Source: Sporocytophaga sp. (GTDB taxonomy: Bacteria; Bacteroidota; Bacteroidia; Cytophagales; Cytophagaceae). Taken from it: a stretch of DNA of 64,000 nucleotides. The stretch spans positions 62,001 to 126,000 of the forward strand of contig NZ_JAGHZZ010000001.1 of assembly GCF_017745095.1 (NCBI RefSeq). Direction: 5' to 3'. Below the pieces are notes generated by a model. The model was given only the letters and a program-made list of their open reading frames with translations, ran no database searches and was not told the origin of the DNA. Made by a program: the position numbers and the translations under genes. How positions within the stretch are numbered: the first letter of the stretch is position 1; each line of letters opens with the position of its first letter. Of this stretch, positions 12,213 through 26,625 are shown one piece after another.

Positions 12213-15200
12213 TTATAACTTTACAATTTTGTATACAAATAATTCTTCATTACTCTTCACTTTCAATATGTAAATTCCGCTTCCTTCGGAAAGGGGCATT
12301 TGAAGAGGACCTTCCTGGACGTTAGACCATTGAGCTATTTCTGCACCCATAGGATTAATAAGTACAACATCAGCATTTTTTGCTCTTCCGAGTGTAAGTG
12401 TTACCTGATCTTTTGCTGGATTAGGGTACACTATCGGTGCAGATTCAGTAATTGAAGTATTATTGCCTGTTATTATAGAAGTGAAGGAAACTCTGAATCT
12501 GTCAGAAATGTCTGTTGAATTAGTGGTGAATTCATATTCAGTTTCATTCGAGATTTCTACTTCCTTACCAAGTAATTTATCTGTCAGATAAGCGCTTGTG
12601 CCTTGCAGAGTTTCTACATTTTTAAATGAAAAAGAGAATTTCCCTGTTCTTGCAGCAGAAATCTGTAACGGGTAAGATCCTGAAAGGAGAGGAATTGAAT
12701 TGATAGAAAGGTCTTCACCATCTGAGGATTTCGTAGAAATGTTGATGACTGTTCCAGGAAGTTTGTATGCATCAAATTCATCATCAAAATTTTTGCTTGA
12801 GCCATCCACTTCTCGGAATAGCAGCTCATCAGACAGGTCTTCAATTTTATCGTTTAGTATAACTTTCAAAGAAGACTCAACAAAAGCGGTTCTTAAGAAA
12901 CTTGTAAACTGCTTTGATTTCGCGGACTCATTAATAATCAGTTTAGGATTTGCTCCGGTTGCCTTGATAAAGAAAGCTTGTCCAATCGCAATAGTCGGGC
13001 CTCCATCATTTGTCGAAGCTCCGTTTACATAAGATGCGTAACCAGATTTAGCCGGATTCCAGATATAAATTCCACTTGTGATGTTAGTTTTTGTCCAGCC
13101 ATCTGCATTTGTCCAATCAATTGGAGAAAGATACGGATTGGCAATTAGGTTCCAGCCACCATTATCATATCCGGCAGCATCAAAAGTAATATTCAAATCC
13201 TTTGTTCCTTTGAAAGGGATACCTGCAAAAACTATCCTGTCCGATTGGAAACTATAAACTCTGAATCCTGTACCTGGTGCATATGGACTAGTTAGGCCGC
13301 TTGGGGCCACCCAGTGATTTAAACTTGTCTTGGTGCCGTCATATGCATAAATGCTTTGGTTTTTTCCTCCGAAGCCCAATGTAATAGATGCATCAAGAGT
13401 TTTTAGTGTCTGATTAACCATTGGGTTACCAACAAATGACCAGCCACTTACTACATATTGAGCATTTCCAATCAGTCCATTTCTAACAAAATCAGTTACC
13501 GGAGTTGTGCATTTGTCCAGTGCCTGTATCCATAAAGTGTCATTGTTAGCATCAATAAAACCACTAAGGATGGATAATGTATCAAGACTATAATCAGATC
13601 CTTTGTAAACTACTCCATTCGGATTTTTTATGATTAGATGTTTGAAAAAATCACCATTATTTTGATACTCATTTAATGTAGGGTTATAGACGCTTGTAAA
13701 TTTTCCTTTTATAGTCTGATTTGCTGTGCTTCCGTCCATAATAACCGGATAGTTAAAAGATGATCCACTATTTGTTATGTCACCTTTTACCGATAATGAA
13801 TATGGGCCAGAAACTATTGAGTTTCTTATATCCAGATTTTTAACAGATAGATCCGAAGCATTGATGTTTGGATATCCGTTTATAATTAAAACATCGTCAT
13901 TTTGTGTCGGAACGGTTCCCTGAGACCAGCTTGAACTGCTAGTCCAGTTACCTGATGATACTTTCCAGCAGTTTTTATTGCAAACCAATTGGATGTCACT
14001 ATCAGCTAAATTTTCAGGAAAGTTTGGTAAACATGTAAATTGATTTCCTTTAGCTTTAATTCTATACAAAGACTCTGGTAATGTTGGGATACTTGGCAGA
14101 TTATTATTTTCACAATACAGCTCTGTTAATGCTGCTGGAATTGTGCCAGTAAACGAAGTAACTTTAGTTTTCGAAAAGTTTAAAATTTGCAAGCCTGCAG
14201 GTGCGGCAAAAGAAGTGATGTTTGTATTTGATAAATTTAGGTAATAAAGAGTCGCAGGAAGTGAAGAAAGCGTTCCGCTAAGATTATTAGAGCTAACATC
14301 AAGATACACAAGATTTGCCGGTAGTACTGGAACAGCTGTTATCTTATTGGAATCTAGATACAAATACTCCAGAGTTGAAGGGATTGATGGAACACTTGTA
14401 AGTAGATTTTTAGATACGGATAAATTTTTAAGACCAACAGGTAAAGTTGGCAAACTAGTCAGTTTGTTTTTTGATATGGATAAGTTTTCCAGACCTGATG
14501 GTAACGTTCCCAAATTAGAAATTAAATTATTCTCTGCATTTAGGTAATTAAGAGAGGAGGGAAGTGCAGGTAGATTTGTCAGCTTATTATTTGATACATT
14601 AAACTCTTTAAGACTATCAATTGAGGTATTAACTTGAATGTTCTCCAGAGCATTATTATTAAGATATAAATTAGTTATGCTTGAAGGTAAAGTTATGTCT
14701 GTTAGTTTATTGTAACTTAAATCCAGAGTCTTTACTTGACTATTTGCCAAAGCAGCATTTGTAGACTGAATTTTGTTCGATCTCAACCACAATGTTGTCA
14801 GATTAGAAGGTAAGCTATCTGGTAGAGCAGCAATATTGCTAGCGGTTAACTCCAGATATTTCAGATTAGACGGTAATGTCGGAATTACTGTTACCGTTTC
14901 AACTTCTGATTGATTTCCTAGTGACAGTGATTCTAAACCGGCAGGCAAATGTTTTAATGCACCAGGTGCATTTACTGAAATAGAGTTGCTATATAAATCT
15001 ATCTTTTTTAAAGTAGCAGGAAAAGTATCAGGAAGGATTTTAACGTAGTTCCATCTGACAGAAAGGTTCTCCAGCTTGGTGAAGTATTTAACCCAGCTGA
15101 TATCATTCATCGGATTTTTATAGTCAATAGTTAATGACTTTACATCCTTGAATTTGGCACAATTCGGATTTATGACATCTTTATTATCAATGTCTTTCGT

Positions 15201-15374
15201 AACGCAGCCTGAATAATAGGTTTTCAAATATAAGATATGCCCTGTCTTTGTTTCCTTTTCCGGGACATCATTCTTAAAATCTTCCGGTGGATCAAAATTT
15301 TGTGCATTGGCACTACCGATTGCAGCTGACAACAGTAATGCTGTCAATGGTTTTCGTAATTTTAAAAATTGCAT
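12213..15374 (-). CDS. Secreted leucine-rich-repeat protein with type IX secretion C-terminal domain
   Basis: The product is about 1053 residues from ATG 15374 (MQFLKLRKPLTALLLSAA, signal peptide ending ANAQ). The first 40% is an LRR solenoid of roughly 20-residue repeats, such as LPSGLENLSISKNKLTSLP and its many variants. After a Cys-containing cap comes a segment starting SSGNWTSSSSWSQGTVPTQ that resembles the N-terminal beta region of many Bacteroidota surface proteins, then beta-rich domains. The end is a T9SS type A sorting domain: YPNPAKDQVTLTL, GIYILKVKSNEE, and a final VYKIVKL. It should be exported by the Por/Gld machinery to the cell surface. It is directly upstream of, and probably co-transcribed with, the 71-aa exosortase-substrate-like protein. 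The longer start at 15416 is rejected because it spoils the signal peptide. Confidence 0.9.
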   Translation of the reverse strand: MQFLKLRKPLTALLLSAAIGSANAQNFDPPEDFKNDVPEKETKTGHILYLKTYYSGCVTKDIDNKDVINPNCAKFKDVKSLTIDYKNPMNDISWVKYFTKLENLSVRWNYVKILPDTFPATLKKIDLYSNSISVNAPGALKHLPAGLESLSLGNQSEVETVTVIPTLPSNLKYLELTASNIAALPDSLPSNLTTLWLRSNKIQSTNAALANSQVKTLDLSYNKLTDITLPSSITNLYLNNNALENIQVNTSIDSLKEFNVSNNKLTNLPALPSSLNYLNAENNLISNLGTLPSGLENLSISKNKLTSLPTLPVGLKNLSVSKNLLTSVPSIPSTLEYLYLDSNKITAVPVLPANLVYLDVSSNNLSGTLSSLPATLYYLNLSNTNITSFAAPAGLQILNFSKTKVTSFTGTIPAALTELYCENNNLPSIPTLPESLYRIKAKGNQFTCLPNFPENLADSDIQLVCNKNCWKVSSGNWTSSSSWSQGTVPTQNDDVLIINGYPNINASDLSVKNLDIRNSIVSGPYSLSVKGDITNSGSSFNYPVIMDGSTANQTIKGKFTSVYNPTLNEYQNNGDFFKHLIIKNPNGVVYKGSDYSLDTLSILSGFIDANNDTLWIQALDKCTTPVTDFVRNGLIGNAQYVVSGWSFVGNPMVNQTLKTLDASITLGFGGKNQSIYAYDGTKTSLNHWVAPSGLTSPYAPGTGFRVYSFQSDRIVFAGIPFKGTKDLNITFDAAGYDNGGWNLIANPYLSPIDWTNADGWTKTNITSGIYIWNPAKSGYASYVNGASTNDGGPTIAIGQAFFIKATGANPKLIINESAKSKQFTSFLRTAFVESSLKVILNDKIEDLSDELLFREVDGSSKNFDDEFDAYKLPGTVINISTKSSDGEDLSINSIPLLSGSYPLQISAARTGKFSFSFKNVETLQGTSAYLTDKLLGKEVEISNETEYEFTTNSTDISDRFRVSFTSIITGNNTSITESAPIVYPNPAKDQVTLTLGRAKNADVVLINPMGAEIAQWSNVQEGPLQMPLSEGSGIYILKVKSNEELFVYKIVKL

Positions 15375-15444
15375 AGAGTATGTGTGATTTTTGTATGAGA
15401 AAATTAGTCCCAACACAATACTCTATATTTAAAATACTTAGCGC

Positions 15445-15509: not shown

Positions 15510-15959
15510 TTAATTTCTGGTATAATCAGAAGTGGATTGCTCCATTTTTTTATACAAATAGAATGAGGGAAGGAAAAAGAGAAGTAAAATCGGAGTATCC
15601 AGCAACTTCATGAAGGCAAATGTGAGCGGCTCTGTAATGTCATTAAACTGAGGAAGTATTCTTCTGCTGAGCACAATCAGGGCAGCTGCACTGAATATGA
15701 TGAGGTCTGTTACCATATAATAGTAAAGAATTTTTTTCTCTCCGGTAAAAACTTTCACTATGAGTCCGTGAATAAATGCCCTATGCATAATAAAAGTCAG
15801 AAGAAAGAAAATAGGGAATTTAGCTACCTGGGGACCTATAATTGGTGAATTGGTTTTATATAAATCCAGAATTGATGTTCTGTTTAAATCGAGGAGGCTT
15901 TGATATAAATACAGCGCAAGACAGACTAAAATTCTTTTACTGAGCAGTTTTTGCGACAT
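15510..15959 (-). CDS. Exosortase-associated membrane protein
   Basis: This 149-residue protein has four predicted membrane segments, centred near residues 13, 55, 90 and 125, and no recognised catalytic motif. Its start lies 22 bp inside the end of the exosortase gene, so the two are translationally coupled. In Bacteroidota, small exosortase genes are commonly paired with a membrane protein of this size. Assignment rests on that pairing plus size and topology, not on a motif. It may stabilise the protease or help present substrate. Confidence 0.6.
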   Translation of the reverse strand: MSQKLLSKRILVCLALYLYQSLLDLNRTSILDLYKTNSPIIGPQVAKFPIFFLLTFIMHRAFIHGLIVKVFTGEKKILYYYMVTDLIIFSAAALIVLSRRILPQFNDITEPLTFAFMKLLDTPILLLFFLPSFYLYKKMEQSTSDYTRN

Positions 15960-16464
15960 GAGTTAGTTGTTTTTTTGCCCAATAAAGCCAGACTATAAGC
16001 ATAAAACCATAGACTACAAAGTTAAAGGTGTATTTGTGGTTAAAGTCAAAACTCGTATTATAAAAGTAAAAATTAAGAATCAGAAGGATTACTCTTAACA
16101 TGTTTAATACATGAATCGCAAAAATTCCCAGTGGTAAGAACCAGATCTTGGATTTCCACGATGCAGGAAAAGCAAGAACAAAGCAGGTAAATAAACCAAA
16201 AAAAGCAAGGCCATTACAAGGCGTTCCGATATAGAGGGTAGGACGACCATCGAGAGAAATGCAATAAGTTTCTTCAACCCAGTTAAGATTCAATCCTGTC
16301 AATGAAAAAAAATAGCTGCTCGACCAACCCAGAAATGATGAAATTTTATAAGAAAAGGGCGATGTGCTAAGATAGGAAGCATAAAAAGTTTCCCAGATGA
16401 TGTATAACAAAATGACTGTTGCAAGGAATACAAATACTGGATTTTTGCGGCTAAAAAAACTCAT
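15937..16464 (-). CDS. Exosortase/archaeosortase family protease
   Basis: This 175-residue polytopic membrane protein has the exosortase catalytic trio in order. Cys83 is in GTPCNGLAFFG, Arg124 in HVLNMLRVILLILN and His143 in FNHKYTFNFVVYG. These enzymes act as transpeptidases that cleave the C-terminal tail of PEP-CTERM-like proteins at the periplasmic membrane face. The short length is typical of Bacteroidota types (the XrtX/XrtF/XrtN kind), and the exact subtype cannot be fixed here. The partner membrane gene overlaps by 23 bp, and a candidate substrate with a PLEGG-helix-RKRKK tail is encoded at 11992-12207. A tandem repeat array lies upstream at 16617-16918. Confidence 0.85.
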   Translation of the reverse strand: MSFFSRKNPVFVFLATVILLYIIWETFYASYLSTSPFSYKISSFLGWSSSYFFSLTGLNLNWVEETYCISLDGRPTLYIGTPCNGLAFFGLFTCFVLAFPASWKSKIWFLPLGIFAIHVLNMLRVILLILNFYFYNTSFDFNHKYTFNFVVYGFMLIVWLYWAKKQLTHVAKTAQ

Positions 16465-16959: not shown

Positions 16960-17361
16960 TTAGACTCTGGAAAGCTTTCTATTTGCAAGTAACAGAGCCA
17001 ATGCTGCTGCACACATTACCCCTTCGATAAACATCCAATTTGTTCCGAAGCTTCCAAGAGCTCCGTCTTTAACCATTGTAAGAATTCTTGAAACAGAATA
17101 AAAACCGCAAAGTAGTGCGACAAATGCCAGACCCTGAAGCTTGTTTTTAAAAAGTAGATAAATTAAAGTGATGAAAATGGTCATCCCTGCCCCTCCATAA
17201 ACTCCTCGGATTGAGCTATAAGCATCAGTATTGGGAAGCTTAACCTGTACTAAGTCCATTACTGACTGAGGATCAGAAAATGCCATCACACTTACCATCA
17301 GAATACCTAAAGCTGTCAGGCAGATGATGAACGTTCCCGAGTAATTTATAAATCTGTTCAT
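16960..17361 (-). CDS. Small DUF4345-type membrane protein
   Basis: This 133-residue protein has four predicted membrane helices. The pattern SSIRGVYGGAGMTIFITLIY near residue 48 and the closing GTNWMFIEGVMCAAALALLL fit the DUF4345 family of small integral membrane proteins of unknown function. The start was placed at ATG 17361 (MNRFINYSGTFIICL). The 34-residue upstream extension to 17463 would overlap the divergent AraC-family gene and does not look like family sequence. The 90-bp shared intergenic region with that regulator suggests that it is its target. Confidence 0.7.
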   Translation of the reverse strand: MNRFINYSGTFIICLTALGILMVSVMAFSDPQSVMDLVQVKLPNTDAYSSIRGVYGGAGMTIFITLIYLLFKNKLQGLAFVALLCGFYSVSRILTMVKDGALGSFGTNWMFIEGVMCAAALALLLANRKLSRV

Positions 17362-17451
17362 AAATGTAGTTTGTTGTCCTGCTGACAAAATAAGCGTATC
17401 TTCAAAAAAAGCTTGTTGCTCTTTACGCCAATCTATTAGCATAAATACGCC

Positions 17452-18471
17452 ATGCGTGTACACAATGAAATTTTAAAAACGCTAATTAATAATGCTTCCC
17501 ATTTTGGAATTGACGAAATGGAGATTTATAAAGACACCGGACTTAATGCCGGTACTTTAAACGAGGCGGAGGGCATGCAGGATTGGAGTGCTGGTATAAA
17601 GGTCTGGGAATCTATATTGCAAAGGTCAAATTACAGACAGATTAGTCTGAATTTCGGAAAAAGAATCACCTTCTCTGTTCTCGGGTGGATTTCTCCACTG
17701 GTGTCAAGCAGTTCGGATTTGCTTACCGCATGGAAAAGCATTGTAAATTTTTTTCCATTAATGGGAGATATGTTTGAGTATCATTTGCTCGAATTATCAG
17801 ATGGCTCTGTTAAAATAGTATATAAGCCATCAGCAACTTGGGTGGAGAAAAGCTCTGTTACAGCTGCAATGGCAGTAGAGCATGCAATGAGTCTGACACT
17901 GGCGATTTCAGGGTTCCTCGTTGGCCAGAAAATCACCCCTTTGAAAGCGAATTTCACTTATGGTGTAAAGCCAAGCGACAGGAGTTTTTATCAGGATATT
18001 TTTGGAAATGTTTCTTTTGGGGAAAATGAAAACAGCCTACATTTTTCAAAAGAAACATCAGAAACAAAAACAGTTTCCGGAAATCAGCTCACTTATGAGT
18101 TTATGCTAAAGCTTTGTTCGGAAAAGCTTAGCGGCGTTCAGCGTTCTGCCGGATATTATTCAAAAGTAAAACGAATACTTTTTAATAAGGAGAGCTATTA
18201 CAATCTGAAAATTGAGGAGGTGGCAGCAATGCTTAACACAAGCACAAGGACATTACAAAGAAATCTGAAGGAAGAAGGATACACTTATCAAAGCATTTTG
18301 GACGAACATCTCGTCGATAGCGCTACAACACTGTTAGCTAAACCTGGAGTGCAGATTCAGGAGGTAGCGTTTATTCTTGGTTTTGAAAGTGCCCAGAGTT
18401 TCAGCAGGGCAGTGAAGAAAAAGACAGGCAAAAGTCCGACGTCATTAAAGGCAAGCATCTTTAAGGACTAA
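17452..18471 (+). CDS. AraC-family transcriptional regulator (Arabinose_bd-type N-terminal domain)
   Basis: This 339-residue regulator has an N-terminal ligand domain of the PF12625 type found in OruR/ArgR-like AraC proteins (SLNFGKRITFSVLGWIS near residue 65, VEHAMSLTLAISG near 145). The C-terminus is a two-helix-turn-helix AraC DNA-binding domain (residues about 240-335). Family marks there are LKIEEVAAMLNTSTRTLQRNL, EEGYTYQSILDEHLVDSA and IQEVAFILGFESAQSFSRAVKKKTGKSP (split here as IQEVAFILGFES / AQSFSRAVKKKTGKSP). It is divergent from the DUF4345 gene. Its 3' end overlaps the convergent flippase-like gene by 11 bp. Confidence 0.9.
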   Translation: MRVHNEILKTLINNASHFGIDEMEIYKDTGLNAGTLNEAEGMQDWSAGIKVWESILQRSNYRQISLNFGKRITFSVLGWISPLVSSSSDLLTAWKSIVNFFPLMGDMFEYHLLELSDGSVKIVYKPSATWVEKSSVTAAMAVEHAMSLTLAISGFLVGQKITPLKANFTYGVKPSDRSFYQDIFGNVSFGENENSLHFSKETSETKTVSGNQLTYEFMLKLCSEKLSGVQRSAGYYSKVKRILFNKESYYNLKIEEVAAMLNTSTRTLQRNLKEEGYTYQSILDEHLVDSATTLLAKPGVQIQEVAFILGFESAQSFSRAVKKKTGKSPTSLKASIFKD

Positions 18472-19351
18472 CTTCAGAAGACTCCTGTGCAGACACTTTT
18501 TCAGGAAAGATTCCAAAGTAAATCCCGCACAGAGAAGAAAATGCAGAGATCAGGTAAAAGAGCATACTAACTGTCACAGAAGCGCTCATGTCAAGGTTAA
18601 AGTGTTCTGCACCATAAAGAAATGTCAGTTCTCTAGCTCCAATGCCCCCAATAGTAAAAGGAAAAGCTGCCACTATAGAAGATACCAGAAATATAAACAC
18701 ATAAGGAAGGTATTGCTGCTTGACACCAACCAACATAAGAAGGAGCAGAATACATATTACCTGGAGTATCTGTCCTGCAAGACTTTGAAGGTTTGTTTTA
18801 TTAAATACTGTCAGATATTTTTTGTAGAAAAGATAAAGTGCACCCCAATAAACGGCAAGTGTGGCTGGTAATGAAAAGAGGGAAAGATAAAAGAAAACAG
18901 GATGGTTGTAAAAAAGAAAAACCGCACAAATTTCACCTAAAAATAGAATAGCTACCATGCCACTTACCCGATCAATAATACTGAGGGATAGCAGATTTTT
19001 CAGGGGACTTTTAAATAGTTTGTGCAGATAATACACCTTATACCCATCGCCTCCAACACCACCAGGCAGTAGCAGATTATAATACATTCCCAAAAGGTAA
19101 AGCCTGAAATTTACTGCATCCGGAATATTGATATTTATAACTTTCAGAAAATGCTTGAACCGGATAGCAGTAATGTATTTTGATACTAGGTATAAAAGAA
19201 GAGTTGGAAAAAGCAGCCAGTAGTCAGAGTTCTTTAGGAGGTTAAAAACATCTCTGATATTTACCGATCTGAATACAAAGAATAAGGCAACCGAAGAAAC
19301 CGAGATTTTTAAGAGAAGCTTTAATACTTTAATGGTGTTTTCTTTACTCAC
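18461..19351 (-). CDS. Flippase-like membrane protein (UPF0104/LPG_synthase_TM domain)
   Basis: This 296-residue polytopic protein is of the lysylphosphatidylglycerol-synthase transmembrane family, without the aminoacyl-transferase domain. The conserved loop NLLLPGGVGGDGYKVYYLHK lies near residues 92-111, followed by DRVSGMVAILFLG and, later, FPFTIGGIGARELTFLYG. Proteins of this kind are often found with glycosyltransferases and are proposed to move lipid-linked intermediates. It is last in a four-gene operon, with its start overlapping the GT39 stop by 8 bp. In that setting a role in flipping the polyprenyl-phosphate amino sugar is a reasonable inference. Confidence 0.8.
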   Translation of the reverse strand: MSKENTIKVLKLLLKISVSSVALFFVFRSVNIRDVFNLLKNSDYWLLFPTLLLYLVSKYITAIRFKHFLKVININIPDAVNFRLYLLGMYYNLLLPGGVGGDGYKVYYLHKLFKSPLKNLLSLSIIDRVSGMVAILFLGEICAVFLFYNHPVFFYLSLFSLPATLAVYWGALYLFYKKYLTVFNKTNLQSLAGQILQVICILLLLMLVGVKQQYLPYVFIFLVSSIVAAFPFTIGGIGARELTFLYGAEHFNLDMSASVTVSMLFYLISAFSSLCGIYFGIFPEKVSAQESSEVSP

Positions 19352-20912
19352 TTTTTACTATGAAATAATATCTGCCATCATACTGAAACTCAAACAGCTT
19401 TTTGAATGAATGCTCCTGAAAGTAAAAATTTTCCATGATATAATACACATCCTTTTTTTCTCCCACATAATCTCTTTGCAAAATTCTTTTATTTTGAGTG
19501 GTAAGATAATATGTCAGATTGTGCTTGATGAAACTGTTTTTATAAATATATAACGGAAGATCTTTACAAATCTTTGCAGAAGCGACTACATCCTGTTTCC
19601 ACTGCACTTCCGGAGAAACAGTTGCCCTTTCCGGCAACACAAATAGGTCAAATCCGATTCTGGCGATGATCAGAGCAAGAGGCAGATAGAACAGATTTTT
19701 TCTTCCGCTTTTGAAGAAAAAATATGTAATAGTAATCAGCGTAATGAGTAGTAAAGATGCCTTTAAGTTTTTTAAAGAAATCTGCGCATGAATCTCCGCA
19801 AAAAATGGGAAGCAAGCCATTACGACAAATACAACAAATGCTACTGACAATAAAATGGAAGTTATTAACTTTTGCTTTTCTGCACCTTCTTTGAAATAAA
19901 AGTATATCAATATAGAAAAGATGAAGGGGAAAAGCAGAAATAAATACCTAGGTCTTGTCTCCGGAGAAATCCAATAGATTGGAATGTTTACAGCAACAAT
20001 AATCAGGCAAAAAAAGATAAACGGATTGTTTTTAGCAATCGTGAAAAAATCTTTCCTGAAGCAGGTAACAATCAGTAACGACCAGGGCATCAGATGAAAT
20101 AGATATTCGAAAGGAAAGATGAACAAGAAGGATAAAGAGGATTTCCAGTTATTTTCGAATGCTGTTCTTTTGCTTGACTCACTCCAAAGGGTTTTAAGGA
20201 AATCGTCAGAAGAGTTGTATTTATTGTAAATCAGAAAATAGCTCCCGATTATTAACATGAAAATAGCTATCCCTAAAAAATGAGCGGGGTGAAATAAAGC
20301 TTTCAATTTTTTAAAGATTAAAAATGTAACACCTAGTGATAATCCCAGAAACACCAAGGCCGGGAGTCCTTTCATCAAAAAGGCAAGAGCGGTGAGAAAG
20401 TATGAAGAAGGAAAGAGTAGATAATAGCGCTCTTTTACAATGAAATAGAATATCGAATAAATAGCAAGATAAAGGATCAATGAGAATAGTATATCTATAT
20501 GACCAAGCATGGAGTCATAAAATAACATTCTCCCGAATGTTAAAAATGCAAAAGCAGAAAGCAATGCAATTTTAGATTCGACATGCTTTTTCATGGTAAA
20601 ATAGATTGTAACAGAAAAAGCCAGAAGAGAAACAACTGCAGGTAATCTCAGTATCCATTCGTCTGCTCGCCCGGAGGTATTAAAAAGTAAGACGAGCAGC
20701 CAGTTATATAAAGGAGGTTTGTTATAATATGCTTCGCCATTGATTGTAGAAAAAATGTAATTTTTGCGAAGCATAAATTCAAGTGCGACCAATGCTCTTG
20801 TTGCTTCATCGCCGAGTGTTGGCATGACATCCAGATTGATCAGCAGTGCGGGAACTGCCAGAATACAAATAAGAGCAACAAGATATTTGTTGCTTTCTAT
20901 TTTTTCCAACAT
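19344..20912 (-). CDS. ArnT-like GT39 polyprenyl-phosphate sugar:lipid glycosyltransferase
   Basis: This 522-residue GT-C membrane enzyme has the ArnT/PMT signature in its first periplasmic loop: LGDEATRALVALEFMLRKN (Asp-Glu near residues 34-35), then INGEAYYNKPPLYNWLL (near residues 58-74) with the KPPL element. About eleven membrane helices and a small C-terminal periplasmic region follow. Known ArnT enzymes move an amino sugar from undecaprenyl phosphate to lipid A phosphate in the outer periplasmic leaflet. The neighbouring GT2 and YdjC deacetylase support an amino-sugar donor. The gene is 10 bp downstream of the deacetylase and overlaps the next gene by 8 bp. Confidence 0.85.
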   Translation of the reverse strand: MLEKIESNKYLVALICILAVPALLINLDVMPTLGDEATRALVALEFMLRKNYIFSTINGEAYYNKPPLYNWLLVLLFNTSGRADEWILRLPAVVSLLAFSVTIYFTMKKHVESKIALLSAFAFLTFGRMLFYDSMLGHIDILFSLILYLAIYSIFYFIVKERYYLLFPSSYFLTALAFLMKGLPALVFLGLSLGVTFLIFKKLKALFHPAHFLGIAIFMLIIGSYFLIYNKYNSSDDFLKTLWSESSKRTAFENNWKSSLSFLFIFPFEYLFHLMPWSLLIVTCFRKDFFTIAKNNPFIFFCLIIVAVNIPIYWISPETRPRYLFLLFPFIFSILIYFYFKEGAEKQKLITSILLSVAFVVFVVMACFPFFAEIHAQISLKNLKASLLLITLITITYFFFKSGRKNLFYLPLALIIARIGFDLFVLPERATVSPEVQWKQDVVASAKICKDLPLYIYKNSFIKHNLTYYLTTQNKRILQRDYVGEKKDVYYIMENFYFQEHSFKKLFEFQYDGRYYFIVKSE

Positions 20913-20922
20913 TAAGATGTAT

Positions 20923-21726
20923 TTAATGTAACTCCTTAAAAGAGATTAATTTGACCGAATTTTTTTTCATAAAAGATTTCCATTCACAGGATTTTAAAAA
21001 TTCATATTCTTCTTTTCTTTTCAGATAAGAACCAGGCCGGTCCATAGTACCGGGATGTGTCATCATTTCTGCAGTCTGATACTTTTCAAAAGCGCTGGTT
21101 AAAGACTTTGAAAATACCTCCATATCTGCTTTTTTATCAGCAGAAAAATCGGAAAGAAGAACCTGCGGACTGATAAATTTTTTTATTTGCCTGTGAGGAT
21201 ATAGGCTCATGGCTTTTAGGATCATTCGCCTTTTATCGGAAAATCTGTTTGTATTAAGTTTTCTTATTTTTTTTATTCCGGCTTCATTTAAAACCTTCAG
21301 AATGAAATCTCCTAATACAGGGTATTGATGAATATGTCGATGGCTGTCTGCATGAGAGATCTCAACCCCCATTTTTTTCAGGCGATGAATCTGATTTAAA
21401 ATTTCAGTTTTAATTTCAGTTTTACTCAGTTTGTTGAGTAGAAATTTCCTATAGATGTTCTGAGCGGAAAGAAATTTTCCATCTTTATCTAAGAGAGACT
21501 TCACATGAGAATGCCTGGATACCGGATCACCATCAATGAGGTTTAGGTGAAATCCTACAGAGATATTGCCTAAAGCAATCAGTTCCTTTATGTCCCGGGC
21601 AGTAACATGGGTAGCCAAAACAGTAGTGCTGGAAATGGCATTTCTCTTTGCGAGATCCAATATTCCCTCTGTGGCGAAAGTATCCCACCCAAAGTCATCT
21701 GCGTTTATGATCAAACGTTTATCCAT
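20923..21726 (-). CDS. YdjC/ChbG-family carbohydrate deacetylase (NaxD-like by context)
   Basis: This 267-residue metal-dependent deacetylase is of the YdjC family. The metal/catalytic motif NADDFG is at residues 8-13, GFHLNL at 58-63, and the HADSHRHIHQYP block at 125-136 supplies metal-binding and catalytic His residues. Family members remove N-acetyl groups from amino sugars. NaxD of Francisella and Bordetella acts on undecaprenyl-phosphate-linked hexosamine before ArnT-type transfer. Here the gene lies between a GtrB/ArnC-like GT2 (8-bp overlap) and an ArnT-like GT39, the same logic. The exact sugar is not deducible. Confidence 0.85.
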   Translation of the reverse strand: MDKRLIINADDFGWDTFATEGILDLAKRNAISSTTVLATHVTARDIKELIALGNISVGFHLNLIDGDPVSRHSHVKSLLDKDGKFLSAQNIYRKFLLNKLSKTEIKTEILNQIHRLKKMGVEISHADSHRHIHQYPVLGDFILKVLNEAGIKKIRKLNTNRFSDKRRMILKAMSLYPHRQIKKFISPQVLLSDFSADKKADMEVFSKSLTSAFEKYQTAEMMTHPGTMDRPGSYLKRKEEYEFLKSCEWKSFMKKNSVKLISFKELH

Positions 21727-22735
21727 TCATCAATTGACCAGAGCTTTGATTCTCTAATTTTAAAGGGATAATAATTTTTTCGTCAGTAATAACTTCCCTT
21801 ACTCTGTAAGGAGGAGCAAATGATTTCTGGAAATAATTGTAAACACCGATTTCGGCTATTATTCCAATTGATAGGAACATGGTACCTATGAGCATGAGAA
21901 ATACGCTGAAAAGAAATTCTGCCAGGTAATGCTCTTTTATGTTCATGTGAAAAAACAATGATCCGACTGTAAAGCCAGTGGTAAGCGCAATTCCTATCAG
22001 AAAATTGATCAGTCCGATGAGGCCGAAAATTCTGAATGGCTTGTTGATGTATGAGATAAAGAATTTTAAAAACAAGAGATCAAGTATTACCAAAAATACC
22101 TTGCTGATTTTATAATTGCTTTTTCCTCTTTTTCTTTCTCTGATTTCAATAGGCAGCTCAGTATATCGGGTTCCTTTGCGGGCTACAATGGCGCCGAGAA
22201 ATCTGTGGCTGTCTCCCAACATGTTACTGCCTTGCAACAGATAACTTCTATAAGCTTTAAAGGTAGCGCCAAAATATCTGAGATTAACGCCAGAGATGCT
22301 TTTGATGATTTTATGTCCTGTTTCTGCAAGGAAATTTTTAAAGGCAGACTCTGGTCTTCGGATTTTTGCACCACCGACCATGTCGTAGTTTCCTTTTTGC
22401 ATTTCCTCTATAAAAACAGGAATATATTGCGGGTCATGTTGCAAATCCCCATCCATTGCTACAATGATTTCCCCGGAAGCCTGTTCAAATCCGGCTCTCA
22501 ATGCCATGGTCTGGCCATAGTTTCCAGCGAGATTTATTGCTTCTATTTGCTTAAACCCTTTTGCAAGAGCCTGTATTTTACTCCAGGTATTGTCTCTGCT
22601 TCCGTCATTTACCAGTAAAATCTGATAGCTGTAATCAGTAGCATTCATTACAGACACAAGCTCGTGTACAAGCTCAAATACATTTTCTTCCTCGTTGAAA
22701 AGGGGAACAACAACAGACACTAAATATTTAGCCAT
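21719..22735 (-). CDS. Polyprenyl-phosphate glycosyltransferase (GtrB/ArnC-like GT2)
   Basis: This 338-residue GT2 begins VSVVVPLFNEEENVFELVHE and carries LLVNDGSRDNTW (near 40), GNYGQTMALRAGFEQASG (near 73) and the DxD-type motif MDGDLQHDP (near 95). The ERKRGKSNYKISK motif near 205 precedes two C-terminal membrane helices. This is the ArnC/GtrB/DPM arrangement that charges undecaprenyl phosphate with a sugar on the cytoplasmic face. It is the first gene of the operon that continues with the deacetylase, the GT39 and the flippase-like protein. About 395 bp of non-coding DNA upstream must hold the promoter. Confidence 0.88.
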   Translation of the reverse strand: MAKYLVSVVVPLFNEEENVFELVHELVSVMNATDYSYQILLVNDGSRDNTWSKIQALAKGFKQIEAINLAGNYGQTMALRAGFEQASGEIIVAMDGDLQHDPQYIPVFIEEMQKGNYDMVGGAKIRRPESAFKNFLAETGHKIIKSISGVNLRYFGATFKAYRSYLLQGSNMLGDSHRFLGAIVARKGTRYTELPIEIRERKRGKSNYKISKVFLVILDLLFLKFFISYINKPFRIFGLIGLINFLIGIALTTGFTVGSLFFHMNIKEHYLAEFLFSVFLMLIGTMFLSIGIIAEIGVYNYFQKSFAPPYRVREVITDEKIIIPLKLENQSSGQLMNG

Positions 22736-23130: not shown

Positions 23131-23661
23131 ATGGCAGTTCAAAGACCATTCAGTTTTAAAAAGTGGATAGATGAAAACAGGCATTTGCTGAAACCTCCTG
23201 TGGGAAACCAGCAAGTGTTCAAAGGCAATGATGATTTTATAGTAATGGTAGTCGGCGGACCTAATTCCAGAAAAGATTATCACTTTAACGAAGGAGAGGA
23301 GTTTTTCTATCAGCTGGAAGGCGATATCAATCTGAAAATTCTTGAAGATGGCAAACCAGTAGACATTCCAATAAAGGAGGGGGAGATTTTTCTTTTACCA
23401 GGAAAAGTACCTCATTGTCCGCAAAGGCCAGCCAATACTATTGGCCTGGTTATGGAGCGCTACAGAAAACCTGGAGAAAAAGATGGTTTTATCTGGGTTT
23501 GTGAAAACTGCGGCAATAAGCTTTATGAAGAGTATGAATATATTTCAGACATAGTAAAACAGCTTCCTCCAATCATGGAAAGGTTTTATTCTTCAAAAGA
23601 GCTTAGAACCTGCAAGGTTTGTGGAACTGTGATGGAGCCACCGGCTAAACCTAAGGCTTGA
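23131..23661 (+). CDS. nbaC: 3-hydroxyanthranilate 3,4-dioxygenase
   Basis: This 176-residue cupin dioxygenase opens the ring of 3-hydroxyanthranilate to the semialdehyde that cyclises to quinolinate. The iron ligands are visible as His51 and Glu57 in DYHFNEGEEFFYQ and His95 in PGKVPHCPQRP. Substrate-contact Arg47 (NSRKD) and Arg99 and Glu109 (MERYRKP) are present. The C-terminus keeps the bacterial rubredoxin-like second metal site, CENC (124/127) and CKVC (161/164). The RBS AAAGGAG is unusually strong for this phylum. The gene stands with kynureninase and kynurenine monooxygenase, although a 306-bp gap with a repeat separates it from them. Confidence 0.95.
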   Translation: MAVQRPFSFKKWIDENRHLLKPPVGNQQVFKGNDDFIVMVVGGPNSRKDYHFNEGEEFFYQLEGDINLKILEDGKPVDIPIKEGEIFLLPGKVPHCPQRPANTIGLVMERYRKPGEKDGFIWVCENCGNKLYEEYEYISDIVKQLPPIMERFYSSKELRTCKVCGTVMEPPAKPKA

Positions 23662-23747
23662 TTTCAAAAATTAGTTTAGGTATTTAGTTAGCGTAACGTG
23701 TCAAAAAAGAAGGATCTCATTCCTAACTCTTCTCCTGAAGCGCACCT

Positions 23748-23872
23748 TGTCATGTTGAGCTTGTGAAACATCTGAGTTTTCAAAAGGATGAAAATTTACC
23801 TATCTGGCAGGTTGTAATTTGAATTTGAAATTATTTTTGGACTATCAGATCCTTCGCAAGCTCAGAATGACA
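23748..23872. repeat. Imperfect long inverted repeat (MITE/REP-like) between kynurenine genes
   Basis: The left arm (23748-23779) starts TGTCATGTTGAGCTTG. The right arm (23841-23872) is its imperfect complement and ends AAGCTCAGAATGACA. The arms match at about 25 of 32 positions around a 60-bp AT-rich centre. Sequences of the form 'GTCATTCTGAGCTTG...' are widespread intergenic repeats in Bacteroidota. Just to the left (23713-23740) a phrase like CATTCCTAACTCTTCTCCTG is a relic of another common intergenic repeat, also seen near 45030-45054. Confidence 0.7.
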
Positions 23873-23967
23873 AAATAGTTTAGAATTACGGCGATTCTTT
23901 GAAGTGGCACAAAGAACTAATACCTAACACAGAAAAATAAAGTATAAAAATTTTCACCTTCTGCTTA

Positions 23968-25269
23968 ATGGCAATGAGAAATATGAAATTTTCCACGGAT
24001 AAAAAATTTGCAAAAAGTCTGGATGTAAAAGATCCTCTAAAAGATTTCAAAAAACAGTTTTTAACTCCGGGAAAAGGTAAAAACAGCCAGATTTACTTTT
24101 GTGGTAACTCTCTGGGACTTCAGCCTGTGACGGCTAAAAAATATGTTGAAACAGAACTGAATGACTGGGCAGAGCTGGCTGTGGAAGGGCACTTTAAAGG
24201 AACCAATCCTTGGGCAGATTATCACAAGCTTTTCAGAAAACCTTTGGCGGCACTTTGCGGAGCATTGCCGGAGGAGGTGGTGGCAATGAACAGTCTTACA
24301 GCTAATCTTCACCTTTTGCTTGTGAGTTTTTACTGGCCTCGTGAGAAAAGAGTAAAAATTCTTACGGAAGCAGGAGGCTTTTCATCTGACATATATGCGC
24401 TTACTTCTCAAATTGAGATCAGAGGTTTTGATCCGGCAGAATGTCTGGTAGAAGTGGGTCCCCGAGAAGGAGAGTTTGCCATTCGCGATGAAGATATCAT
24501 TAAGAAAATTGAGGAGTTGGGAGATGAGCTGGCATTGGTAATGATGAGTGGTGTGAACTACTATACCGGTCAGGCATTTGATATGGAAGCAATTGCAGAA
24601 GCAGCTCATACTGCAGGTGCCTACGTTGGTTTTGATCTTGCGCATGCTATTGGAAATATTCCTTTAAATCTCCATGAGTGGCAAGTAGATTTTGCAACCT
24701 GGTGTTCTTATAAATATCTGAATGCAGGCCCAGGAGCTACGGCTGGGTTGTTTGTGCACAGTGAAAATTTTCATTTGCCAAGATTTGCCGGATGGTGGGG
24801 CAATGATGAAAAGGAAAGATTTCTGATGAAGCCGGAATATGAACCGTCCATTGGTGCGGAAGGCTGGCAGTTGAGCAATGCGCCTGTTTTGCCGATGGCA
24901 GTATTAAAAGCTTCTTTGGATATTTTTCAGAAAGCAGGATTGAAAAAGATTTTTAAAAAGAGCGAGCAGCTGACAGCATATCTGGAGTTTTTGATAAAAA
25001 TCAAATGTACTCCAGCTCAAAAGCCAAAGCCTTACAAAATAAGAATCATAACTCCGACAGAGCCTGTTCGACGCGGAGCTCAGCTTTCAATATTCTTTGA
25101 GAGAGGCGATGGTAAAAAGCTGGTACAGCAATTTGCCAAAGAAGGTATTATACTTGACTGGAGATCGCCTAATGTTCTCAGGGTTTCACCGGCACCGCTT
25201 TACAATTCATATACAGAGGTATATACCTTTGTTGAAAAGTTTGCAGAATTCTGCGAGTATACAAATTAA
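23968..25269 (+). CDS. kynU: Kynureninase
   Basis: This 433-residue fold-type I PLP enzyme cleaves kynurenine or 3-hydroxykynurenine to (3-hydroxy)anthranilate and alanine. Family marks are IYFCGNSLGLQP (near residue 42), ALPEEVVAMNSLTANLHLL, GVNYYTGQAFDM, the PLP-aspartate region GFDLAHAIGN, and the Schiff-base lysine Lys249 in CSYKYLNAGPG. The substrate-binding GWWGND and WQLSNAPVLPMA blocks follow. Length is normal. The kynurenine monooxygenase gene begins 3 bp after its stop, so the two form one transcript. Confidence 0.96.
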   Translation: MAMRNMKFSTDKKFAKSLDVKDPLKDFKKQFLTPGKGKNSQIYFCGNSLGLQPVTAKKYVETELNDWAELAVEGHFKGTNPWADYHKLFRKPLAALCGALPEEVVAMNSLTANLHLLLVSFYWPREKRVKILTEAGGFSSDIYALTSQIEIRGFDPAECLVEVGPREGEFAIRDEDIIKKIEELGDELALVMMSGVNYYTGQAFDMEAIAEAAHTAGAYVGFDLAHAIGNIPLNLHEWQVDFATWCSYKYLNAGPGATAGLFVHSENFHLPRFAGWWGNDEKERFLMKPEYEPSIGAEGWQLSNAPVLPMAVLKASLDIFQKAGLKKIFKKSEQLTAYLEFLIKIKCTPAQKPKPYKIRIITPTEPVRRGAQLSIFFERGDGKKLVQQFAKEGIILDWRSPNVLRVSPAPLYNSYTEVYTFVEKFAEFCEYTN

Positions 25270-25272
25270 AAA

Positions 25273-26625
25273 ATGATGGAGGATAAAAAAGTTGTTTTAG
25301 CCGGCGGAGGACTAGTGGGAAGTTTACTTGCTTTGTTGTTAGGCAAAGCAGGTTATGAAGTGGATGTTTATGAAAAGCGGCCGGACCCACAAATGACTGC
25401 TCCTGAAACTGGAAGATCCATCAATCTTGCATTAAGTCATCGCGGAATCAGAGCTTTACAGGCAGCGGGGGTAGAAAAGGAAATGCTGAATATTGCCATT
25501 CCAATGAAAGGCAGATACATTCATCATGAAGACGGCTCCAATTCTTTTCAGCCATATGGTGATGAAGGTCAGGTTATTTATGCAGTCTCCAGAAGTGATC
25601 TGAACAAGACGCTTCTGAATAAAGCAAGAGAAGCGCACAATGTAAACCTGTTCTTTAATGAAAGATGTGTTAAGGTAAATATTGAAGAGTTCAGTATTGA
25701 ATTTGAAAACAAGCAGGATGGAACGGTTAAGAACAAAGAGTTTTCAGTGCTGTTTGGAGCGGACGGAGCTTTTTCACAAGTACGAAGTGCGCTCCTGCCG
25801 ACGAGTAGATTTAATTATTCTCAGGAGTATCTTGAATATGGATACAAAGAATTAACGATTCCTTCCAACGCAGGAGCGCACAGAATGGAGAAGAATGCAT
25901 TGCATATCTGGCCGAGAGAGAAGTTCATGCTGATAGCGCTGCCTAATCTTGATGGGACTTTTACGGCAACGCTTTTTTTACCATTTGAAGGAGAGATTTC
26001 TTTTACGTCATTAAAGACCGATTCTCAGATTGAGACATTTTTTAATCAGTACTTTGCAGATGCCGCCGGTCTTATACCAGAGCTGAGCAAGCAGTTTGCC
26101 GAGCATCCTACTTCAGCGTTAGTGACTGTAAAATGCTATCCATGGGTATATGAAAATCGGATCGCATTGATTGGTGATGCTGCGCATGCTATTGTGCCTT
26201 TTTATGGACAAGGCATGAATGCGGGCTTTGAAGACTGCCGGGTGTTGTATGATCTGATTACTAAAAATGGAAGTTTGAAAGCAAGTCTTCAGGAATATCA
26301 GGTGCTGAGGAAGCCGGCGGGAGATGCAGTCGGACAATTGGCACTTCAGAACTTTATCGAAATGAGAGATCTTGTTGGCGACAAGAAATTTCTGTTGAGG
26401 AAAAAGATTGAAGCTAAGATACATCACAAAATTCCAGGTTATCTTCCGCTTTACAGCATGGTGACCTTCAGCGATCTTCCATATCATGAAGCTTTGGATA
26501 AAGGGAAAAAGCAGGACAGGTTGATGGAAGAGATTATGAAGCTTGAAGATGTGGAGGAATTGTCTGAGAAAAAGGAGGTTTGGAAGAAGATAGAGGAGTT
26601 GGTGGAGAGGGAGATGGGGAGGTGA
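25273..26625 (+). CDS. kmo: Kynurenine 3-monooxygenase
   Basis: This 450-residue FAD-dependent aromatic hydroxylase converts L-kynurenine to 3-hydroxykynurenine with NADPH and O2. It shows the N-terminal Rossmann motif GGGLVGSLLALLLGKAGYEV and the family stretch ETGRSINLALSHRGIRALQ. The second FAD motif is RIALIGDAAHAIVPFYGQGM, followed by NAGFEDC. The C-terminus is shorter and less hydrophobic than the membrane-bound eukaryotic enzyme. Together with kynureninase and the dioxygenase it gives the kynurenine-to-quinolinate section. Tryptophan dioxygenase and formamidase are not in this window. Confidence 0.95.
   Translation: MMEDKKVVLAGGGLVGSLLALLLGKAGYEVDVYEKRPDPQMTAPETGRSINLALSHRGIRALQAAGVEKEMLNIAIPMKGRYIHHEDGSNSFQPYGDEGQVIYAVSRSDLNKTLLNKAREAHNVNLFFNERCVKVNIEEFSIEFENKQDGTVKNKEFSVLFGADGAFSQVRSALLPTSRFNYSQEYLEYGYKELTIPSNAGAHRMEKNALHIWPREKFMLIALPNLDGTFTATLFLPFEGEISFTSLKTDSQIETFFNQYFADAAGLIPELSKQFAEHPTSALVTVKCYPWVYENRIALIGDAAHAIVPFYGQGMNAGFEDCRVLYDLITKNGSLKASLQEYQVLRKPAGDAVGQLALQNFIEMRDLVGDKKFLLRKKIEAKIHHKIPGYLPLYSMVTFSDLPYHEALDKGKKQDRLMEEIMKLEDVEELSEKKEVWKKIEELVEREMGR

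Follow-up and report, generated by a model that had tools for sequence, protein, structure and literature searches.

A conserved four-gene module of Cytophagales and its putative role in adding an amino sugar to lipid A or the lipopolysaccharide core

What brings together a polyprenyl-phosphate sugar synthase, a sugar deacetylase, a sugar transferase and a flippase-like membrane protein in a member of the Bacteroidota? The question is raised by a locus in Sporocytophaga sp. (genome of 6.63 Mb in 64 contigs), found within a stretch of 64,000 nt of contig NZ_JAGHZZ010000001.1 that is referred to here as the window. A preliminary description had reported four minus-strand genes with 8-bp overlaps and a 10-bp gap, and had read them as a lipid A amino-sugar operon. 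The open reading frame list agrees with the layout in full: the genes for the glycosyltransferase of family GT2 and the YdjC protein overlap by 8 bp, a gap of 10 bp separates YdjC from the GT39-like gene and the latter overlaps the flippase-like gene by 8 bp (Table 1). Their GC content of 0.35-0.38 compares with 0.354 for the window. The reading favoured here, with somewhat better than an even chance of being right, is a lipid-linked amino-sugar pathway that ends on lipid A or the core of lipopolysaccharide (LPS).

Table 1. Genes of the four-gene operon in the window
Feature	Positions	Strand	Product
GT2, ArnC-like polyprenyl-phosphate sugar synthase, C-terminal membrane part	21719-22735	-	338 aa
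YdjC-family sugar N-deacetylase, apparently soluble, without N-terminal extension	20923-21726	-	267 aa
ArnT-like GT-C transferase (GT39-like)	19344-20912	-	522 aa
Flippase-like membrane protein, LPG_synthase_TM / TIGR00374 family	18461-19351	-	296 aa, GTG start

Whether the four genes belong together was addressed by searching 390 whole genomes of the order Cytophagales with the YdjC protein. Matches at E <= 0.001 were found in 66 genomes, and a gap in the scores set apart 24 genomes at E <= 5.1e-31, the window genome included, from the next best at 5.7e-18. The 23 other YdjC regions were fetched and compared with the window proteins. A GT2 gene lay within ~0.7 kb of YdjC in all 24 genomes (51-62% identity outside the genus) and a flippase-like gene was near it in 23. 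The GT39 gene was on the YdjC contig, within ~8 kb, in 23 of the 24, namely in the window, in 21 of the fetched regions and in G556, whose copy lies just beyond the fetched part; in G372 the gene is broken into three matches. The exception for both GT39 and flippase is G390, in which the YdjC contig is 4.4 kb long. Co-occurrence had been proposed as a check on the operon, and the genes were thus found to be linked in relatives and not scattered. The order GT2-YdjC-GT39-flippase was seen in four genomes of the genus, with the surroundings of the operon unchanged in the three other than the window genome, GT39-flippase-GT2-YdjC in five genomes, and two convergent pairs 0 to ~7 kb apart in 14 genomes of the family containing Hymenobacter. 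The same genes in different orders point to a shared function and not merely to an inherited neighbourhood, and linkage that is kept across families in this way is more than chance. The four genes form a genuine functional unit and a module that is conserved in Cytophagales.

Named carriers comprise six Hymenobacter records (L099-L103, L105), Algoriphagus iocasae (L104) and three metagenome-assembled genomes (L097, L098, L106). In A. iocasae a polyprenyl synthase gene stands just upstream of the GT2 gene, which is followed by YdjC (L104 5981-8804). A sample of 295 genomes from the class gave a YdjC match in 22, two of them from the window's order. In G471 the GT2 gene and a monooxygenase-like gene each occur in two frames (L055 8862-9877 and 12265-13613), which may be assembly indels.

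The first gene product, previously described as a GtrB/ArnC-like GT2, falls into the ArnC class both by the ranking of NCBIfam models and by its match in the PDB. It matches Pfam Glycos_transf_2 (E 1.3e-29), its top NCBIfam model is ArnC (149.5 bits, below the cut-off of 529) and its top PDB match is ArnC 9hwj (E 1.9e-36, residues 6-317) followed by sll0501. For the fourth protein both Pfam LPG_synthase_TM (E 4.9e-31, 108.7 bits against a cut-off of 33.4) and TIGR00374 (67.1 bits against 43.2) exceed their curated cut-offs, in keeping with the flippase-like role that had been predicted for it; it also has a weak match to MprF. Membership of LPG_synthase_TM and the MprF match bring to mind an aminoglycolipid system resembling GpgSDF or HexSDF, in which glucosamine would be put on a phospholipid or glycolipid that LPG_synthase_TM flips, GT39 being extra or unrelated. 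The Pseudomonas aeruginosa gpgSDF operon combines a glycosyltransferase, a deacetylase and an AglD2/YbhN flippase and makes glucosaminyl-phosphatidylglycerol (PMC12713373, excerpt), and hexSDF of Clostridioides difficile is analogous with an MprF-like flippase (PMC10128005, excerpt). The three kinds of gene are thus shared with the window operon, and glycerolipid genes occur among some neighbours of the module in relatives. However, the families of the glycosyltransferase and deacetylase differ, the window enzyme being an ArnC-class GT2 where GpgS is annotated as a GT4 (PMC12713373, excerpt) and HexS is of the monogalactosyldiacylglycerol-synthase type (PMC10128005, excerpt). In these excerpts the acceptor is directly a lipid and the operons are without an ArnT-like enzyme, which in Cytophagales is linked in 23 of 24 genomes. 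A system of this kind is considered improbable. It should be added that the flippase role of the LPG_synthase_TM relative in gpgSDF is itself unproven (PMC12713373, excerpt).

The third protein on its own had no Pfam match at 0.001 and no PMT-family match at 1, and five of the 15 rows of its alignment matched PMT_2. A profile of those 15 rows found a sole PDB match at E <= 1, which was ArnT 5ezm (7.1e-18). A structural model built from a 9-row alignment (predicted local distance difference test score, pLDDT, 83.8) matched ArnT with undecaprenyl phosphate (5f15) with a Z of 26.9 and a root-mean-square deviation of 4.4 over 483 aligned residues, model 4-522 lying on chain 26-568, so that the GT-C fold includes the C-terminal domain. 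Among the folds listed the next best was ALG12 (Z 18.1). The assignment of this protein as an ArnT-like GT39 enzyme containing NGEAYYNKPPLYNWLL is borne out by the translation and by the lead of ArnT over the other GT-C folds. Invariant D35 and D140 align with what we take to be the catalytic-site residues D55 and D158 of Cupriavidus metallidurans ArnT, an index offset of 3 being assumed. In Burkholderia cenocepacia ArnT the Lys of YFEKP (K69) and R254 in the second periplasmic loop are needed for polymyxin resistance (PMC5377068, excerpt). In the profile alignment to 5ezm these correspond to K65 and R249 of the window protein, both invariant in 15 rows, the pairing of R254 with R249 being based on the alignment and on equal spacing. 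The C-terminal acidic residue E493 had no clear counterpart in that alignment.

A GT-C fold does not by itself name an acceptor, since enzymes of this fold serve many (OST, PMT, Emb and ALG are among the fold matches). The same polyprenyl-linked pathway could thus deliver its sugar to an O-antigen or core sugar, to a glycan of type IX secretion system (T9SS) cargo or another glycoprotein, or to some other periplasmic glycan. In Cytophaga hutchinsonii glycosylation of T9SS cargo takes place in the periplasm, and measurements showed glucosamine in the glycoproteins (PMC11858162, excerpt). The oligosaccharyltransferase, ligase and core-glycan flippase of Bacteroidota O-glycans are described as undiscovered (PMC12871550, excerpt). 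An inner-core sugar is also modified by ArnT of B. cenocepacia (PMC5377068, excerpt). Set against this are the margin of nearly 9 Z units by which ArnT leads the next fold, in a match spanning residues 4-522, and the finding that lipid A within the order carries a sugar, as in Echinicola (PMC8707317, excerpt), both of which leave room for other acceptors. A different acceptor is regarded as unlikely, if the most serious of the alternatives.

The lipid A chemistry of the order and phylum is relevant here. The window genome encodes LpxC (E 9.2e-91), which indicates that it makes lipid A. Mono-phosphorylated lipid A with D-galacturonic acid (D-GalA) on the non-reducing glucosamine has been described from Echinicola pacifica and E. 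vietnamensis (PMC8707317, excerpt), the latter being a member of the Cyclobacteriaceae within the Cytophagales, so that sugar-bearing lipid A does exist in this order. In Zunongwangia (Flavobacteriaceae) the lipid A phosphate can carry 2-aminoethyl (PMC9470727, excerpt).

The deacetylase matches Pfam YdjC (E 8e-47) and retains NADDFG and HADSHRHIHQYP, as had been claimed for it. Residues D10, D11, H60, D127, H131 and H133 are invariant in alignments of 16 and 17 rows, and some of these acidic and histidine residues presumably bind metal. The first strand of the predicted structure (pLDDT 92.6) begins at residue 3, which leaves no space for a signal peptide, and the protein should on this model be cytoplasmic. 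As the Pfam family is shared with ChbG and HpnK, a role in chitooligosaccharide or hopanoid metabolism has to be weighed. ChbG (NF002559) and HpnK (TIGR03473) are the top NCBIfam models for the protein, and ChbG 7vi8 ties with EF3048 2i5i as best fold match (both Z 29.2, ahead of CmCBDA 8jqf at 26.4). However, the model scores are less than half of the cut-offs, 106.9 bits of 227 for ChbG and 101.2 of 232.6 for HpnK. A quick YdjC tree of 103 of 124 rows (21 short matches were dropped) placed all window-type proteins in one clade with a Shimodaira-Hasegawa-like approximate likelihood ratio (SH-aLRT) of 96, the only row labelled 'other' within it being a second copy of the Algoriphagus row. Escherichia coli ChbG, a long branch, fell into a separate group (SH-aLRT 95) together with three more YdjCs from the class and two further rows. 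The clustering with chitooligosaccharide deacetylases that had been named as evidence against the operon was thus absent as regards E. coli ChbG. A caveat that must be applied to this tree is that its rows were picked by likeness to the window YdjC, include some duplicates and are without NaxD. The N-terminal family of squalene-hopene cyclase (PF13249) gave no match in the one genome searched, that of the window, with the control found in Bacillus subtilis. A ChbG or HpnK function is accordingly held to be very improbable. A plasmid search returned 47 records, many of them annotated chbG, and was not used further.

The favoured pathway to lipid A or the core would run as follows. At the cytoplasmic face the GT2 would transfer an N-acetylhexosamine from a uridine diphosphate (UDP) sugar to polyprenyl phosphate, the presence of a deacetylase being the reason for proposing an N-acetyl sugar. 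The soluble YdjC enzyme would then strip the acetyl group to leave a free amine, a substrate suggested by its neighbours. The LPG_synthase_TM protein may flip the polyprenyl-phosphate hexosamine to the periplasmic face, as its family implies, and the ArnT-like enzyme would hand the sugar on to an acceptor in the periplasm, for which lipid A (or the inner core) is the most likely candidate. A hexosamine on lipid A would make the surface less negative and would thereby probably protect against cationic peptides. Enzyme classes and linkage are computed; from these we infer the substrates, the order of the second and third steps, the acceptor and the phenotype. That the four steps take place with some acceptor is very probable, and about two thirds of that expectation falls on lipid A or the core.

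Several observations weigh against this reading. No feature of the sequences fixes either the acceptor or the sugar. Tyr43 of the RYA motif is necessary in B. cenocepacia ArnT (PMC5377068, excerpt); it aligns with R39 of the GT39-like protein, invariant in 15 rows, and the Glu of FEKP aligns with N64. As the RYA tyrosine is not kept, the protein is called ArnT-like and not ArnT. Algoriphagus iocasae (G675) has the GT2-YdjC pair and no GT39 relative at E <= 1e-20, from which it is clear that the module is not indivisible. In G336, conversely, a close GT39 (535 bits, a score that falls between the two groups) occurs in the absence of the module's YdjC and GT2; it adjoins a GT2 of another type and a Polysacc_synt protein, and was placed beside a window-type GT39 in the tree. 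No lipid A or LPS gene family was found among 20 neighbours scanned (14 of 131 listed neighbours and six from L104). Several of them suggest glycerolipids over LPS: next to the module lie a diacylglycerol-kinase/YegS-like protein (L056) and a glycerophosphodiesterase (L074), and the Algoriphagus pair has an acyltransferase and a glycerol-3-phosphate dehydrogenase in its vicinity. The flanking regulator is AraC-type by Pfam and not PmrA-type. The strict Bacteroidota promoter motif TTG...TA..TTTG had no match in the 395 bp before GT2, where one weaker single-box match was present; counted over both strands, the window holds 14 copies of this two-box motif. The original description as a lipid A amino-sugar operon is supported in part: the conserved module of GT2, YdjC, ArnT-like enzyme and flippase-like protein stands, and the lost RYA tyrosine and the A. 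iocasae pair without GT39 count against it.

Linkage of GT2, YdjC and ArnT-type genes is also found in Francisella (FlmF2-NaxD-FlmK, the YdjC protein NaxD presumably lying beside flmF2/flmK) and in Bordetella (LgmABC, in which LgmA and LgmC accompany LgmB, a relative of ArnT), the likeness considered here being one of classes and linkage. The Cytophagales module differs from both in including an LPG_synthase_TM protein and in belonging to another phylum. The glycosyltransferase genes flmF2 and flmK of F. novicida bear the consecutive locus numbers FTN0545 and FTN0546, and its lipid A is modified with galactosamine (PMC4688374, excerpt); Bordetella LgmB puts glucosamine on the lipid A phosphates (PMC8168481, excerpt). 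The ArnCDT-EF operon of E. coli, for the aminoarabinose pathway, likewise unites a carrier-linked sugar synthase, a deformylase, a flippase and ArnT. It differs in that ArnD is only a remote fold relative of YdjC (8t0j Z 13.2, against 29.2 for ChbG), that ArnE and ArnF are short proteins and that the RYA and FEKP residues discussed above are not kept in the Cytophagales GT39. Three-component glycosylation systems consist of a carrier-linked sugar synthase, a flippase and a GT-C transferase, from which the present module is set apart by an extra deacetylase that would give a charged sugar. No description of a YdjC/ArnT lipid A system in Bacteroidota was found among the papers listed from the openly licensed literature, in line with the preliminary description, which knew of no case from the phylum. 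The parts are known already; novelty lies in their occurrence in this phylum, in the addition of a flippase-like member and in the two donor cassettes described below.

Beyond the order, YdjC adjoined a GT2 in 15 of 70 other named loci, and one more (L154) had a weak adjacent match. These pairs came from Aminicenantes, Planctomycetota, Acidobacteriota, Magnetococcales, Elusimicrobia, Bacillota (Negativicutes) and one unplaced metagenome-assembled genome. In L107, L145 and L169 (Aminicenantes) and in L111, L115, L137 and L140 (Planctomycetota) the GT2 was 35-42% identical to that of the window. Recurrence in several phyla indicates that YdjC and GT2 form a wider pair to which the Cytophagales version adds GT39 and the flippase. 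A single clade of all YdjC-adjacent GT2s across phyla, apart from the rest, was considered and was not shown by the trees. The class to which the genome of L119 belongs is rich in YdjC, with matches at E <= 1e-15 in 334 of 399 genomes sampled from it and up to five per genome. So high a share is unlike Gammaproteobacteria and may perhaps point to Acidobacteriota; these genomes were left out of the further analysis.

The transferase family also occurs in a second version that is free of YdjC. At E <= 1e-20 the GT39 profile matched 66 of the 390 order genomes. Of these, 23 belong to the 24 with YdjC and 43 to the remaining 366. The same threshold gave matches in 33 of 295 genomes from the family that contains Algoriphagus iocasae. 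The YdjC-free GT39 regions of 20 of the 43 and 12 of the 33 were examined, giving 32 regions with one genome represented twice (L195, L240). Within 4 kb of GT39 a GT2 was present in 12 regions (including the GT2 of differing type in G336), an LPG_synthase_TM protein in 11 and a GalE-like NAD-dependent epimerase/dehydratase in eight; in 16 of the 32 no partner of these kinds was found over that distance, some of them lying on short contigs. YdjC, ChbG or ArnD at E <= 1e-5 was absent from all 32 regions among the matches listed. Six of the GalE-like proteins were scanned and fell below all NCBIfam cut-offs.

Phylogenetic analysis separated the GT2s of the window kind (27 rows) from those of the YdjC-free kind (11 rows) with full support for each group. 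When long branches were left out of an unrooted GT2 tree, these two kinds and the other phyla each occupied one side of a branch. The GT39s of Cytophagales, whichever their kind, formed one clade (support 100). Separate GT2 groups with a single GT39 clade point to two donor cassettes on one transferase family, which may have been exchanged or may have diverged in place. The first GT39 tree, with G336 included, mixed the two kinds. Without the ambiguous G336 row the well-supported branches force only one change, a single clade of window-kind GT39 was not rejected (approximately unbiased test, p-AU 0.64) and the constrained tree had the higher likelihood. A forced, repeated exchange of donor cassettes is accordingly not supported.

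A broader scheme, put forward as speculative and rather doubtful, is that Cytophagales cap lipid A with a lineage-specific sugar by means of one ArnT-like family, often accompanied by an LPG_synthase_TM flippase, which would be supplied either by GT2 with YdjC (an amino sugar) or by a GT2 of another clade, with or without an epimerase. The cassette would set the surface charge while the acceptor machinery stayed constant. The GalE-like cassette would then provide, for example, a uronic acid, of which D-GalA in Echinicola is an instance. UDP-GalA could readily come from a cassette of the epimerase type, and the galacturonic acid on Echinicola lipid A is a candidate product of the YdjC-free version of the family.

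A few Proteobacteria are known to decorate lipid A with amino sugars, a modification that affects resistance to cationic peptides and immune recognition. If the favoured reading is true, the Cytophagales system would extend amino-sugar lipid A to another phylum and give a candidate flippase for polyprenyl-phosphate amino sugars. C. hutchinsonii, which appears to be one of the relatives, is amenable to gene deletion, for example of ugd (PMC11858162, excerpt), which makes the pathway directly testable.

Around the operon, the AraC-type gene (17452-18471) converges on the flippase-like gene with an overlap of 11 bp. It forms part of a divergent DUF4345 / AraC-type pair (window 16960-18471) that is also found ~5 kb from an epimerase-type GT39 in G398, a genome of another family (L186 14543-16030). 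On the GT2 side a gene set diverging from the operon starts 395 bp away (window 23131-26625); it presumably represents kynurenine-pathway genes, and is kept beside the operon across the genus. Further off, the minus strand carries an exosortase-family protein (15937-16464) closest to XrtX, with 147.5 bits under a cut-off of 170. Its gene is overlapped by that for a 149-aa protein (15510-15959) with no Pfam or NCBIfam match. Elsewhere in the genus both recur in all three of the other genomes, with just part of the short protein in one of them. Also on the minus strand (12213-15416) is a 1067-aa leucine-rich-repeat-like protein, the C-terminus of which resembles, in translation, a T9SS sorting domain.

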